From a virus, in the IMG/VR virus record IMGVR_UViG_3300019776_000711, positions 1 through 38,363 of that record: a stretch of DNA of 38,363 nt; one strand, given 5' to 3'. A program made the position numbers and the translations under genes. The notes under the pieces are model-generated. The model saw only the letters and a program-made list of their open reading frames with translations. It was not told where the DNA came from and searched no databases. Within the stretch, counting starts at the first letter, position 1; each line of letters begins with the position of its first letter. This document shows positions 857 through 38,289 of this stretch, piece after piece.

Positions 857-1058
857 CGTTAAACCACCGGCACCGGAACCCAACACGCGGCACACCGCGC
901 TGCTGGCTATTCCGCCCATCCAAGCACACCACCTTACCCAACACCACATCATGCGACCGGCAAGCCCTGCAACCGAGAGCAGACAACTGAGCACGCTCCA
1001 CAACATCTGCAGGATCTCCGTAAAACGGACGCGGCAAAGCCCTACTTGCGCCGGCCAC
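849..1058 (-). CDS. Small cysteine-rich phage protein
   Basis: A 69-residue protein starting with GTG behind a good ribosome-binding site (GAGGTG four bases upstream). It has CRAC at residues 30-33 and two later cysteines (C45, C63), a spacing that could hold a small zinc ribbon. The stop overlaps the start of the late-regulator gene and the start overlaps the previous gene, so the three are translationally packed. I do not recognise a named family. Zinc binding is inference from the cysteine pattern. Confidence 0.55.
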   Translation of the reverse strand: MAGASRALPRPFYGDPADVVERAQLSALGCRACRSHDVVLGKVVCLDGRNSQQRGVPRVGFRCRWFNDE

Positions 1059-1284
1059 TTTTCACCTCTGCAACACAATCCAACTCAATCTCACTCAACT
1101 TCACCGTTCTATCCGGATCAGAAACCGACCGAGTACCGACACACCGCCCGTTCTCTTCCGCATAAACCAGCTTCACGCCGTTTCCGAACTCTTTACGAAT
1201 GGCATCAGCAAACTCCGTTACTTTCGGAAACATAGCTTTAGTCTCATCCGCAGTTCTACATATAACCTTGACTGGATCAACCAT
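1042..1284 (-). CDS. Hypothetical phage protein, replication/late-control cluster
   Basis: An 80-residue protein beginning MVDPVKVICRTADETK. ATG 1284 has AGGGG eight bases upstream; the longer frame to 1308 lacks this. It is soluble and charged, with no membrane segment and no motif I can name. It is the first gene downstream of the TTCCATACC repeat cluster in the leftward operon. Its end overlaps the next gene's start. Function unknown. Confidence 0.55.
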   Translation of the reverse strand: MVDPVKVICRTADETKAMFPKVTEFADAIRKEFGNGVKLVYAEENGRCVGTRSVSDPDRTVKLSEIELDCVAEVKSGRRK

Positions 1285-1310
1285 TGAGCAAACCCCTAAA
1301 AAAACCAACC

Positions 1311-1567
1311 TTCCATACCTATAATCAGGTATGGAACAAGTATGGGAGTTGCCGAGCCTTTATTCATAACCTTCTTCCATACCTCCATACCTTCCATACT
1401 GAAAAATAAATATCCACACACGCGCGCACACGCACACACGTGCGCGCCTGTCCGTATGTACGCGGGAGGTGTCATGTATGGAAGGTATGGAAGGTATGGA
1501 AGAACAAGCCTCCATGCGCCTTTCCAGGTTCCATACTTGTTCCATACCTCACGCAAGGTATGGAACA
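1311..1567. repeat. GGTATGGAA/TTCCATACC repeat cluster, candidate replication origin
   Basis: About a dozen copies of a 9-base word occur in 257 bases. Exact or near copies start at 1311, 1328, 1375, 1384 (8 bases), 1392, 1475, 1484, 1493, 1529, 1540 and 1557, with a weaker one at 1340. At each outer edge two copies face each other as TTCCATACC-N8-GGTATGGAA (1311-1336 and 1540-1565; the second has 11-base arms, 1538-1567). Inside, three head-to-tail copies (1375-1400) oppose three more (1475-1501) around a roughly 75-base loop, which contains an alternating CA/CG tract near 1414-1447. It directly abuts the primase-helicase stop codon. Iterons beside a replication gene suggest an origin; this is inference. 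Confidence 0.7.
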
Positions 1568-3969: not shown

Positions 3970-4712
3970 TTAAGATTCACATCGCAGGAGGTTGAATGCC
4001 ATTGCAGCCACTGCCGGTACTTGCCCGTTTCCAATGGCGACAGTTCTGTCCACCCTTGCGGCCATGCCATTACCTCTTCCAAGAATCCAGGATTCGGGTA
4101 TACAGTTTTCTCCGCATTGCTGTATTTCGCCAAGAACTCGCGCAATGTCAGTCCATTGCGATGCGCATGATTCGCGCGCCTCTGTACTTGGTATGGCGTC
4201 GACCCTTTGTGATCCGTTGCCGTCGGTGTAGGCAACAAGCCAGAAACGTTTCCGGTTGTGATGAAACCCGGCGTCGATCGCTCCCATAATTCCCCATCTC
4301 GCATCGAACCCCATGACGGCAAGGTCACCAAGGATTCTGACAAGTCCTCTGGAAACAAGGAGTGGTGAATTTTCCAGGAACACGAACCGCGGTCGAACAT
4401 CATCGATAATGCGCGCCATGTGCTTCCACAATCCGGATTTTTCTCCGTCGATTCCTGCGCCTTTCCCGGCAACGCTGATGTCTTGGCACGGAAATCCGCC
4501 AGAAACGACGTCAACAATTCCGTTCCACGGCTTTCCGTCAAAACTGCATACGTCAGACCAAATCGGGAAAGGTTCGAGAATTCCATCGTTTTGCCGTTGC
4601 GCGAGAACTTGTGCGGCGTAGGCATCACGTTCAACTGCACAGACTGTTCGCCACCCGAGCAACTTCCCCCCGAGTATTCCGCCACCAGCGCCCGCGAAAA
4701 GAGCCAGCTCAT
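3966..4712 (-). CDS. Full-length ORF overlapping the methyltransferase in another frame
   Basis: 248 codons, lying almost wholly inside the cytosine methyltransferase gene on the same strand, one frame apart. The product has PTPTATD at 161-167 and MAWPQGWTEL at 215-224. I recall proteins with such PTPTA(S/T)D and GWPxGWT motifs as frequent hypothetical ORFs at phage methyltransferase loci, often overlapping them. Its ATG forms an ATGA overlap with the stop of the upstream gene (4709), and its TGA forms an ATGA overlap with the primase start (3969). Both are typical of genuinely coupled phage genes. Whether it is translated cannot be shown here. The alternative is a conserved shadow frame of dcm. 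Confidence 0.45.
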   Translation of the reverse strand: MSWLFSRALVAEYSGGSCSGGEQSVQLNVMPTPHKFSRNGKTMEFSNLSRFGLTYAVLTESRGTELLTSFLADFRAKTSALPGKAQESTEKNPDCGSTWRALSMMFDRGSCSWKIHHSLFPEDLSESLVTLPSWGSMRDGELWERSTPGFITTGNVSGLLPTPTATDHKGSTPYQVQRRANHAHRNGLTLREFLAKYSNAEKTVYPNPGFLEEVMAWPQGWTELSPLETGKYRQWLQWHSTSCDVNLK

Positions 4713-4728
4713 TCACCAGCAGCCCCAT
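3970..4728 (-). CDS. dcm: DNA (cytosine-5) methyltransferase
   Basis: A 252-residue C5-cytosine methyltransferase. Motif I is FAGAGGG (11-17), motif IV GGFPCQ (77-82, catalytic Cys81), motif VI LENSP (118-122; usual ENV), motif VIII HHNRKRFWLVA (156-166) and motif X AIGNGQVPAVA (231-241). The stretch between VIII and X is short, so the target-recognition domain is reduced compared with typical 300-400-residue enzymes. The likely role is host-evading DNA modification; the recognition sequence cannot be read. ATG 4728 has GGTAAGA before it; GTG 4716 with GGGG upstream is an alternative. The stop (TAA 3972-3970) directly precedes the primase ATG. A second ORF covers almost the whole gene in another frame. 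Confidence 0.9.
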   Translation of the reverse strand: MGLLVNELALFAGAGGGILGGKLLGWRTVCAVERDAYAAQVLAQRQNDGILEPFPIWSDVCSFDGKPWNGIVDVVSGGFPCQDISVAGKGAGIDGEKSGLWKHMARIIDDVRPRFVFLENSPLLVSRGLVRILGDLAVMGFDARWGIMGAIDAGFHHNRKRFWLVAYTDGNGSQRVDAIPSTEARESCASQWTDIARVLGEIQQCGENCIPESWILGRGNGMAARVDRTVAIGNGQVPAVAAMAFNLLRCES

Positions 4729-6893: not shown

Positions 6894-8078
6894 ATGAAAA
6901 AAACAATCCTAAACGCAACCGCAGCACTACTTATCACAACATCCGCAATGGCCAATGCGACGTGGACAATTAAGAGTCTAGGCACTTTAAATGCAAGCTA
7001 TCCCTATGCTTTTGCTTCCGCTATCAACGATTCCGGAGTAGCAGTAGGCGCATCTACTATTTCTATCACTTACTCATTTATCACCACTAATCACGCTTTC
7101 ATTTCCTATCCTGACAGCACAGGATTGACTGACTTAGGCACTCTGAGCGGAATTGGCGGTAGCGCCGCCAGAGGAATCAACAATTCAGGGCAAGTTGTAG
7201 GAGAATCTTCCGCTGCTGACAGAACCCATCATGCGTTTATAACTGGAGCCAACGGCATCGGCATGACCAGCTTGCCATACCCAGATGATGCATTAATGAT
7301 GAGCGCCCAATCAATAAACGACCCAGGGCAAGTGGCGGGTTGGGTCATTACCGCCAACGGCTACCGTTATCCATGTCCCGGCTGCGAAGGTCTTGAGTAT
7401 TATGAATCATATGCTTTCATTACCGGATACAATGGTATTGGTATAACCAAACTTGGTACACTTGGTGGGCCAGAAACTTATGCGTATGACATAAATAATT
7501 CCGGTCAAGTAATTGGAACATCCTCTGTCGGAGGAAGTGGTTCCATCCACGCCTTCATGACAGGCCCTAATGGCGCAGGAATATCTGATCTAGGAACTCT
7601 TGGCGGAACAAATAGCGAAGCTTTGAGCATTAATGATTCCGGACGAGTGACAGGATCATCCTATACTGCTGAAAATGATACCCATGCCTTCATTACCGGG
7701 CCTAATGGCACAGGAATGATTGATCTAGGAACCTTAGGAGGAGATTACAGCGCTGCCAAATCTATTAATAATTACGGACAAGTAGTCGGAGTATCAACTA
7801 CCACTGAAGGCATTGTCCACGCATTTCTCACCGGGATCAATGGCACGGGAATGACCGATCTTAGCTTACTTGCGCCAGTTGTCGCCGCTGGATGGACTCA
7901 ACTTAATCCTTTATCCATCAACAACAAAGGCCAGATCGTAGGTTACGGATCGTTACATGGACATTCGCAAGCATTTCTACTAACCACACCAGAAATTTCC
8001 CCCGTCCCGGAACCATCAACCTACGCGATGTTGCTGGCGGGATTGGGGTTGATGGGGTTTAAACTTCGCAATAAATGA
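6894..8078 (+). CDS. Extracellular HAF-repeat protein with PEP-CTERM sorting tail
   Basis: 394 residues. A signal peptide (1 to about 20, ending AMANA) is followed by about six HAF repeats of 40-50 residues. Each has HAF(I/M/L)TG.NG.G(M/I).(D/K)LGTLGG and then SINNSGQVVG-type text, which suggests a beta-propeller-like fold. The C-terminus is a PEP-CTERM signal: PEP at 372-374, a hydrophobic stretch LLAGLGLMGF, then basic KLRNK. Such proteins are exported and processed by a host exosortase and belong to exopolysaccharide-producing Gram-negatives. A GGGA ribosome-binding site precedes the ATG. In a phage this is a likely lysogenic-conversion gene changing the cell surface or matrix. Family call firm; role inferred. 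Confidence 0.92.
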   Translation: MKKTILNATAALLITTSAMANATWTIKSLGTLNASYPYAFASAINDSGVAVGASTISITYSFITTNHAFISYPDSTGLTDLGTLSGIGGSAARGINNSGQVVGESSAADRTHHAFITGANGIGMTSLPYPDDALMMSAQSINDPGQVAGWVITANGYRYPCPGCEGLEYYESYAFITGYNGIGITKLGTLGGPETYAYDINNSGQVIGTSSVGGSGSIHAFMTGPNGAGISDLGTLGGTNSEALSINDSGRVTGSSYTAENDTHAFITGPNGTGMIDLGTLGGDYSAAKSINNYGQVVGVSTTTEGIVHAFLTGINGTGMTDLSLLAPVVAAGWTQLNPLSINNKGQIVGYGSLHGHSQAFLLTTPEISPVPEPSTYAMLLAGLGLMGFKLRNK

Positions 8079-36155: not shown

Positions 36156-37862
36156 CTATAGGATCATGATGCCTGGTTTTGTTTCCGGTTCTAATTTGTT
36201 CATCAGCGCAACACCTGCTCCCATGACCGCAGCCACCATCAGGTCGATGCGGCCGGTGGCTTTTAATTTGTCCAGCTTGCGGTTACCGGCTGCGTCTTGC
36301 GTGGTTACCGCATTTGCTGCGCACATGGTTAGGATCGGGTGTCCGTTGTGGACTACTTTTCCGTTCAGTAGCGCTGCTTCAAATGATTCAATGGCCGGGC
36401 TCATGTCTTTGTAGCCTTGGCCGAATGGCACCATTTCAGGCAACGTTATGCCGTAATCTGCGGCCATTTGCATCAGGTCTTCAATGCGCCAGCGGTCGTA
36501 TGCTATGCATTGAATGTCAAAGCAGTCTTGCAATTCTTGCAGTCGTTGTAAAACGTGCAGTTTGCTGATCGCGCGGCCCGGTGTTGTTTCCAAGAATCCG
36601 CTTGTTTTCCAGACTAAATATGGGTTTCGGTCGATTTCTTCTTTGTGCAATAAGCCTTCGTTGGGCAGCCATGCGAACGGAACAAGCTGCCAGGGTTCGT
36701 CTTGCGTTTCCGGTTCTACCCATAGCAATAACCCCGTCAAGTCTTGCGTCGATGATAGATCGAGTGCGCCGTATGCGCGGCGGCCTTGCAGGTCGCGCCA
36801 GTCGTAAGTTCTTCTAGCGCCTTGCCAGACTTCGCGAGATATCCAAGGATTCGCTGCTTCTGTCCATTGGCAGAAATTCAGCCGCCGGACGATGGCTTCT
36901 TTGCTGGGCATTCCCTTTGCGTCTTTGACCTGGCTGCGCAGGTATTTTTTACCGGGTATTCCATGCAGCAGGCTCGGGTTCGCTTTCGGCCAGCATTTTT
37001 CGTCGTTGAACGGGTCGTCAGTTTCATCGAGCGCGCAGATGTACGCGAAGAATTCATCATCAATGACCTGCTGTGCGGCAACCTTTACGCCGTAATTGTG
37101 GTGCACGCCGCACGGGCTTTTCTTGTCGCTTCCGCTGTTCGTGATCATGGCGATCATCGGCTGTTTGCGGAACTTGAAACCGGCTTTCATCATGTCGATG
37201 ACGTGCGCGGTTTTGTGTTCGTGCACTTCGTCGATCAGGCCGATGTGCGGGCGCGGTCCGGATTGTCCTTCATCCGATGAGATCGGGCGGAAGAAGCTGC
37301 CGTTTTTTAAATATGACAGGTTCCAGGTTTGTTCGCCACGGCCGCTTTTTTTCAGCGCTTCATTCAATACCGGCGATTGGTCGACCATTGCGACGGCATC
37401 GCGGAACAGGATCATTGCCTGGTCGCGCTTGGTTGCCGCCGCGTATATTTCTGCGCGGCTTTCTCCATCGGCAACGAGTCCGTAGAGTCCGATTCCGGCT
37501 TCGAGCGGTGATTTGCCGCTGCCTTTCCCGGTTTCGATATAAGCCATGCGAAACCGGCGCATTCCGCCATCGTCGACCCAGCCAAAAATGCTTCCGATAA
37601 CAAACTTTTGCCAGTCGAGTAATTCATACGGCTTTCCTTCGTAGTCTCCTCCGTTTAATCGCAGCACGTCGCGGTAGAATCCGATGACGCGCTCTACTTT
37701 TTGCAGGTCGAAAAAAAAGCCCCTTTTTGGGGCTTCGGTCAGGTCGTCAATGTGTCTTTGACATGCGGCCCTGACGTGAGGGCCTGCGATTATTTTACCT
37801 GTAGTTATTTTTCGCGCGTATGTGGTTACCGGGTCACGTGAGGTAGCCTTTACCAGATTCAT
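36156..37862 (-). CDS. Terminase large subunit
   Basis: About 568 residues from ATG 37862 (TTG 37868 is also in frame). Walker A IETGKGSGKS at about 109-118, Walker B HIGLIDEVHEH at about 206-216, the motif ITNSGSDKKSP, and in the C-terminal nuclease half YGALDLSSTQDLTGLLLWVE and CIAYDRWRIEDLMQMAADYG. This matches HK97/P27-type TerL. It pumps and cuts DNA at cos. It overlaps terS by about 29 bases. A hairpin with eight T lies inside the gene at 37711-37735. Confidence 0.95.
   Translation of the reverse strand: MNLVKATSRDPVTTYARKITTGKIIAGPHVRAACQRHIDDLTEAPKRGFFFDLQKVERVIGFYRDVLRLNGGDYEGKPYELLDWQKFVIGSIFGWVDDGGMRRFRMAYIETGKGSGKSPLEAGIGLYGLVADGESRAEIYAAATKRDQAMILFRDAVAMVDQSPVLNEALKKSGRGEQTWNLSYLKNGSFFRPISSDEGQSGPRPHIGLIDEVHEHKTAHVIDMMKAGFKFRKQPMIAMITNSGSDKKSPCGVHHNYGVKVAAQQVIDDEFFAYICALDETDDPFNDEKCWPKANPSLLHGIPGKKYLRSQVKDAKGMPSKEAIVRRLNFCQWTEAANPWISREVWQGARRTYDWRDLQGRRAYGALDLSSTQDLTGLLLWVEPETQDEPWQLVPFAWLPNEGLLHKEEIDRNPYLVWKTSGFLETTPGRAISKLHVLQRLQELQDCFDIQCIAYDRWRIEDLMQMAADYGITLPEMVPFGQGYKDMSPAIESFEAALLNGKVVHNGHPILTMCAANAVTTQDAAGNRKLDKLKATGRIDLMVAAVMGAGVALMNKLEPETKPGIMIL
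37711..37735 (-). terminator. Terminator-like hairpin inside the terminase gene
   Basis: Minus strand AAGCCCC-AAAAA-GGGGCTT then TTTTTT; it encodes EAPKRGFFF near residues 43-51 of TerL. It has full intrinsic-terminator form although it is coding. Confidence 0.55.
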
Positions 37863-38289
37863 TTCCAAATAGGTCGCGTTGCACGCCAGGTGCTACGCGG
37901 GTGCGTGCGGCTGGCGATAGGCCGAATTGTTGCAGGTAACGGTGGCAGTCTTCCATCGCGCGGTTTGCTATGTCGAGCCACGGGTTGCGGATCGGGTAGC
38001 CATTTGGCGATGTGATGATTAGGTCACCTTTTCCTTTTGCTTTGAGTTCTTCTATTTTTTTCTCTGCGTCTTGCCAGCGTCCGTATGATACGCAGTACAA
38101 CGCGAGAGCTGCTGTGTCGATGTCGGTTACAAGTTTGTATTCAACCAGCAGCTTGATTATTCTCTCCCATTCTGCCCTAGCGCTTTTGCTTAGGTGATCC
38201 GGGCAATGCGGTGCTGCGAATTGTGGTTTTCCTGATCCGGCAGTCTTTGGGAAATCAAGAATATTCTTTTCTGATGTTCTTCCTGGCAT
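37834..38289 (-). CDS. Terminase small subunit, P27 family
   Basis: 151 residues: CPDHLSKSARAEWERIIKLL, VTDIDTAALALYCVSYGRWQ, GYPIRNPWLDIANRAMEDCH and RYLQQFGLSPAARTRVA. These are all hallmarks of the P27-type TerS. It recognises the packaging site and presents it to TerL. The ATG lies in an AT-rich leader without a clear ribosome-binding site. It is the first gene after the window join. Confidence 0.93.
   Translation of the reverse strand: MPGRTSEKNILDFPKTAGSGKPQFAAPHCPDHLSKSARAEWERIIKLLVEYKLVTDIDTAALALYCVSYGRWQDAEKKIEELKAKGKGDLIITSPNGYPIRNPWLDIANRAMEDCHRYLQQFGLSPAARTRVAPGVQRDLFGNESGKGYLT

Follow-up and report, generated by a model that had tools for sequence, protein, structure and literature searches.

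In phage P4, the alpha protein is primase, helicase and initiator in one, has a C-terminal DNA-binding part and works with nonamer iterons, and in these respects it is like the system proposed below. The iteron word and the primase type are different, however, and in P4 the ori and crr sequences are two separated loci. Lambda-type O iterons also form a phage array beside A/T-rich DNA. In lambda, the sites are within the O gene and the initiator is not a helicase, whereas the element described here is mirrored, lies outside the gene and is proposed to be read by the helicase.

The closest described systems are the pri-rep origins of SaPI and PICI satellites, which are found immediately 3' of the initiator helicase gene and consist of two sets of iterons with a presumed melting region between them (PMC6092414). 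No other known bacterial replicon has this two-set organisation according to the same paper, in which maintenance was tested for the coli PICI (PMC6092414). The SaPI Rep helicase is self-loading and has a C-terminal origin-recognition domain, and in SCCmec the C-terminal domain of the helicase Cch2 likewise binds direct repeats, a putative origin, just downstream of the operon (PMC7581432). SCCmec Cch2 uses three 5-nt iterons and a separate primase-polymerase, and neither mirrored arrays nor an alternating tract are described there (PMC7581432).

A related arrangement is present in IMG/VR record IMGVR_UViG_3300019776_000711, analysed over its whole length of 38,363 nucleotides (the window). 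In contrast to the satellites, this virus contig belongs to a tailed, temperate phage: its 38 kb include genes for terminase, portal, tape measure and integrase. It has a 257-bp element (1311-1567) of mirror-order iterons around a purine-pyrimidine-alternating tract. With a probability of about 85%, this element is considered to be the phage replication origin, of iteron type and bound by the winged helix of the primase-helicase itself. Both binding and replication are inferred, in the absence of binding, replication or read-depth data. The reading is based on the position at the primase 3' end, the conserved mirror geometry, the covariation of the iteron word with a primase residue, and the structural match to PriRep1. 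An iteron-type origin had already been proposed in the initial annotation, and it remains the best supported reading.

Elsewhere in the record, a gene at 6894-8078 (+), perhaps cargo that the lysogen expresses, encodes a protein that looks secreted, with a PEP-CTERM sorting signal and five HAF repeats. An HNH endonuclease gene (43-372) and the terminase subunits (36156-38289) are found at opposite record ends on the same strand, as though the record were cut open close to the packaging site; in VarioGold, an annotated cosR is next to the HNH gene.

The element contains twelve sites of the 9-base word GGTATGGAA (Table 1), seven exact, four with one mismatch and one degenerate (AGTATGGGA), the last read from the sequence exactly where the family geometry predicts a site. 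About a dozen copies in a 257-base gap adjoining the primase-helicase gene had been claimed, and both the number and the position are borne out, the primase stop codon being at 1570. The outer pairs do share the identical layout TTCCATACC-N8-GGTATGGAA that had been reported (1311/1328 and 1540/1557), and the arms 1311-1345 and 1531-1565 are 86% complementary. The inner triples are opposed, and 35 bp lie between them and the outer module on both sides. The symmetry described in the initial annotation holds for the triples and the mirrored outer modules; it fails in the middle, where an A/T-rich stretch is present only at the primase-distal end of the tract. The alternating nature of the tract was correctly recognised, with a perfect run of 33 nt. 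Over the whole window, GGTATGGAA with up to one mismatch occurs 19 times, against 6.6 expected from shuffles, and none of 100 shuffles (maximum 14) reached this number, in agreement with the earlier view of an order beyond chance. Eleven of the 19 near-copies fall within 1311-1565. All seven exact copies are confined to the cluster, with none elsewhere in the 38-kb window, and a word scan of the window found no second iteron cluster.

Table 1. Features of the repeat element and of the adjoining primase-helicase gene, in window coordinates.
Feature	Position	Strand	Remarks
Primase-distal outer module	1311-1347	1311-1319 (-), 1328-1336 (+), degenerate 1339-1347 (+)	N8 between the first two sites; layout shared with relatives
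Primase-distal spacer	1348-1374		Fixed geometry (site to triple, 35 bp start to start); conserved spacer box degenerate here
Inner triple array	1375-1400	-	Sites 1375-1383, 1383-1391, 1392-1400
A/T-rich stretch, primase-distal tract end	1401-1413		Candidate melting site; GC of this tenth of the tract is 0.28 in the family
Perfect 33-nt alternating purine-pyrimidine run	1415-1447		CA/CG/TG steps; core of tract 1401-1474
Inner triple array	1475-1501	+	Sites 1475-1483, 1484-1492, 1493-1501
Spacer box GCGCCTTTCCAGG	1516-1528	+	Family consensus GGSTTTCAGS; directly adjoins outer iteron
Primase-proximal outer module	1529-1565	1529-1537 (-), 1540-1548 (-), 1557-1565 (+)	
VapE-type primase-helicase P0001, 799 aa	1570-3969	-	Zinc-binding and TOPRIM parts (DnaG-like) at the N-terminus, then a VapE helicase and, at the C-terminus, a predicted winged helix
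Codons of C-terminal winged helix, about aa 693-780 of P0001	1630-1893	-	Proposed specificity residue F770 at about 1660-1662

The N-terminal part of P0001 matches the DnaG zinc-binding domain 1d0q and TOPRIM domains, and aa 490-703 match the Pfam VapE-like helicase PF05272 (242 bits, E 6.3e-72). The model of aa 391-799 matches dsDNA-bound PriRep1 (7pds; Z 31.5, 386 aa, rmsd 3.6), a homologous self-loading helicase of the SaPI/PICI type. The C-terminal part alone has moderate matches to winged-helix domains (Z 6-7.8), and its predicted fold is helix-strand-helix-helix with a two-stranded wing. Position 770 is the second residue of an R-F-W-Y motif and falls on the predicted wing strand. A match to Zalpha (4lb5, Z 6.2) reflects the shared winged-helix fold and was not accepted as evidence of Z-DNA binding. 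A C5 cytosine DNA methyltransferase gene (3970-4728, minus strand) is located directly upstream of the primase gene.

Similar elements were found with two DNA patterns. A 26-base triple pattern matches 27 viral contigs, and a mirrored gapped pattern matches 43 viral contigs besides the window, as well as 15 contigs from genomes or MAGs of bacteria, the titles of which name Nitrosomonas, Methylobacillus, Methylovorus, Methylophilaceae, Dechloromonas, Rhodocyclaceae, Dactylopiibacterium, Accumulibacter and Burkholderiales, and in two cases only Betaproteobacteria or Proteobacteria. The initial annotation had recommended looking for the word beside the primases of related phages, and 58 of the 59 pattern-found elements (window included) indeed lie at the 3' end of a P0001-homologous primase gene (primases 40-74% identical). 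The 59th is at a contig edge, its contig beginning 207 bp before the element. In eight bacterial genomes with the element, the doubled word is confined to one cluster, save one single match. No match to the element was obtained by blastn against annotated phages.

An alignment of 12 primases fetched 80 further loci, blind to the DNA. Mirrored arrays, 60-160 bp apart and at most 520 bp downstream, are present at 87 of 142 VapE primases, the pattern-found GGTATGGAA loci included, and in none of 95 random windows. Protein-found relatives with more than 600 bits against P0001 and enough downstream DNA have them in 10 of 11 cases, and the eleventh (L073) has an intact primase-proximal half and is cut inside the tract by DNA with an IS630-type transposase frame (PF01710, E 7e-6). 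According to the initial annotation, the origin reading would be refuted by related phages having the same primase and no such repeats; it withstood this comparison. Mirrored arrays were not detected in several distant VapE relatives. A looser search, allowing arrays up to 230 bp apart, gave suggestive matches in VarioGold-type phages, which are not claimed since random windows also scored (7/104).

Nineteen of the 87 array-positive loci use other words, e.g. GGTTGGACG, GGTTGGGAA or ACTGGGACA, and GGTTAGGAA-word elements are a further group with the same architecture. Marinobacter phage PS3 (L067) has the same layout with the words GGGGTGACC/GGTATGACC, and a relative of phage Haddon (L066) has GTGGGACA arrays 99 bp apart, with a centre that is alternating plus A/T-rich. 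Pseudomonas-type relatives (L115, L120, L130, L164-L168) have 13-18 ACTGGGACA sites downstream of the primase; their outer module is repeated in tandem, in variable number. In 91 of 102 spacers, the matched words of the triple and of the inverted outer site are 36 bp apart, and in the family the box GGSTTTCAGS adjoins the outer site on both sides. The box is also found in 13 of 38 spacers of other-word elements, against 1.8% of shuffles. Retention of spacer and geometry while the word changes points to a single conserved machine whose reading head can be exchanged.

Covariation of word and protein was examined only within the GGAA-word subfamily. GGTRTGGAA elements (GGTATGGAA-type) are accompanied by F, H or S at position 770 of P0001 (58 aligned primases, and two more, L098 and L102, with F read by eye), and GGTTRGGAA elements (GGTTAGGAA-type) by Y (13/13). 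Position 770 is the only column of 502 without residues common to both word classes, and its mutual information (0.691) is the maximum possible, the next column having 0.389. In 47 elements, 441 GTATGGA and 72 GTGTGGA were counted and no GTTAGGA or GTTGGGA; 10 elements have GGTTRGGAA, plus a few GTAGGGA/GTGGGGA, and no GGTRTGGAA. One stray GTGGGGA was seen in the GGTRTGGAA class. In a helicase-core tree built without the C-terminal 150 aa, word and residue each change about 8 times, with identical states in every row. At least five of these changes are well supported, and the independent pairs on well-supported branches agree in 5/5 cases, although a sign test on no more than five pairs cannot give p 0.05. 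In L092, a GGTTAGG word goes together with another residue.

In a later DNA scan for the GGTTAGGAA triple, all eight new loci with a visible primase (about 6 distinct) have Y. Excluded from this count were L175, a real element that ends at the edge of the available sequence, and L176, L180, L182 and L186, which were rejected as elements: their GGTTAGGAA repeats are in tandem, without mirroring, and no VapE primase is close by. In these four, the repeats seem to belong to the coding sequence of unrelated genes, as PNLPNLPN-type linkers. The GGTTAGGAA element was not found in 369 class-level genomes scanned, and the GGTATGGAA element was found in only two of 399 order-level genomes, both already known; these scans added no independent test of the word/residue rule. 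As far as can be judged from sequences, direct reading of the word by the primase-helicase would be a simpler account of the covariation than a separate DNA-binding protein.

Statistics of the central tract were obtained from 56 distinct elements, in which it is 65-105 bp long (mean 82). Alternation per step is 0.74-0.88 in the core, 0.35 at the ends and 0.51 in the DNA downstream, and the longest alternating run has a median of 26 nt, compared to 9 (95th percentile 15) in random 550-bp windows of the same loci. Most of the core has a GC content of 0.67-0.80; the primase-distal tenth of the tract has only 0.28, and an A/T-rich end on this side is general across the family. CG and GC account for 44% of the steps and CA/AC/GT/TG for 34%, and the tract meets the Z-DNA-type sequence criterion of a long alternating run rich in CG and CA/TG. 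A role of the GC-rich core as Z-DNA is plausible, only the alternating pattern having been demonstrated. L109, L132 and L133 have AT-rich centres instead, so the class as a whole does not depend on an alternating tract. These relatives, and the free variation of tract sequence and length, would suit a passive spacer, prone to dinucleotide repeats and only keeping the arrays apart. Relaxed DNA would, however, drift to an alternation of about 0.5, whereas the core stays well above this despite sequence turnover; homopurine steps are rare at a GC of 0.7-0.8, and the A/T-rich end keeps its side. A merely passive tract is improbable on these grounds, if not to be dismissed, and what is conserved in the alternating tract is taken to be the pattern and not the sequence. 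Extruded hairpins or a cruciform, terminator-like or for single-strand priming, might also make use of the symmetry in place of double-stranded binding sites, as the outer pairs are 10-12-bp inverted repeats with loops of 6-8 bp and stems of at least 5 pairs occur in 42% of proximal spacers versus 21% in shuffles. Distal spacers have no excess of stem potential over shuffles, and no consistent signal of spacer stem-loops was obtained; the triples are direct repeats, useless for hairpins; and cruciform formation by the tract was rejected from its self-complementarity of 0.55, compared to 0.53 by chance. Such extruded structures are hardly credible as the function of the element.

A location between co-directional genes, with an ORF starting just beyond the element (1042-1308, minus strand), and the presence of CII-like and repressor genes in the window would be compatible with an operator or promoter array, with a transcriptional regulator on the iterons governing the genes that follow the primase and a symmetry that merely reflects cooperative looping. 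This is quite unlikely: it is a primase residue with which the word covaries (no comparable scoring was made of regulators), the architecture keeps its place at the primase 3' end although the flanks differ greatly, and the exact words are confined to the cluster in the window and, save one single match, in eight bacterial genomes with the element. Alternatively, the primase-helicase could bind the iterons mainly for control, by copy-number handcuffing or autoregulation, like plasmid incompatibility iterons or P4 crr, with initiation elsewhere. The variable number of outer modules, as in the Pseudomonas-type loci, is expected if the outer sites modulate. It is the inner triples around the tract, however, that are the most constant part, as for a loading and melting site, and the window lacks a second cluster, which makes control as the main function very unlikely.

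An origin read by the primase-helicase is therefore preferred. The initial annotation had alternatively proposed a cluster of binding sites for an unknown initiator; the binding sites are retained, and the initiator can be narrowed, from the covariation and the predicted fold, to the C-terminal winged helix of the primase-helicase. In the proposed mechanism, this winged helix would bind the iterons, with a putative recognition helix at about aa 743-755, and the wing residue F770 would take part in recognising bases four and five of the word. Two head-to-head hexamers would be loaded by the opposed arrays and may open the central tract, probably from its A/T-rich, primase-distal end. Primers could be made at the opened tract by the DnaG-like N-terminal part, resulting in bidirectional replication. 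The alternating tract would probably aid opening, by a B-to-Z transition or by weakly stacked pyrimidine-purine steps under negative supercoiling. Melting of the tract or its conversion to Z-DNA, both put forward in the initial annotation, is inferred only. GC skew tracks the gene strand, with no switch at the element, and was uninformative. A broader proposal is possible and remains doubtful: there would be a class of phage origins whose alternating GC-rich tract, selected but free in sequence, switches to left-handed Z-DNA and stands in for the AT-rich unwinding element, two head-to-head primase-helicases would open the tract, and the wing residue would set the iteron word, single-residue changes giving new, mutually incompatible origin specificities.

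In its proposed mode of action, the phage element belongs with the SaPI/PICI pri-rep origins, with which it shares the position immediately 3' of the helicase gene and the two iteron sets around a presumed melting region. It is not classed as one of them because its carrier is a complete phage and its centre is not AT-rich, only the primase-distal decile being so, in contrast to the satellite origins and to L109, L132 and L133. Further differences are the strict three-plus-three mirror geometry, the 36-bp spacing, the spacer box and the outer N8 pairs. Among the literature matches listed for the word, only unrelated occurrences were found, and no description of phage origins with Z-DNA was found in the literature. 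The mirror geometry, spacer box, alternating centre and one-residue code appear to be undescribed in searchable papers, from which most subscription journals are excluded.

The origin type served by a self-loading helicase, known from staphylococcal and Gram-negative satellites, would be extended by these elements to whole temperate phages of beta- and gammaproteobacteria, with the winged helix of the primase-helicase identified as the likely reader of the repeats. Since one residue (770) covaries with two bases of the word (GGTRTGGAA or GGTTRGGAA), one substitution would be enough for a direct test of origin specificity. The question is also raised why the centre is GC-rich and alternating rather than AT-rich, be it as Z-DNA, as flexible steps or as a passive spacer. 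A word/residue code of this kind would explain how phages with a common replication module could escape cross-interference.
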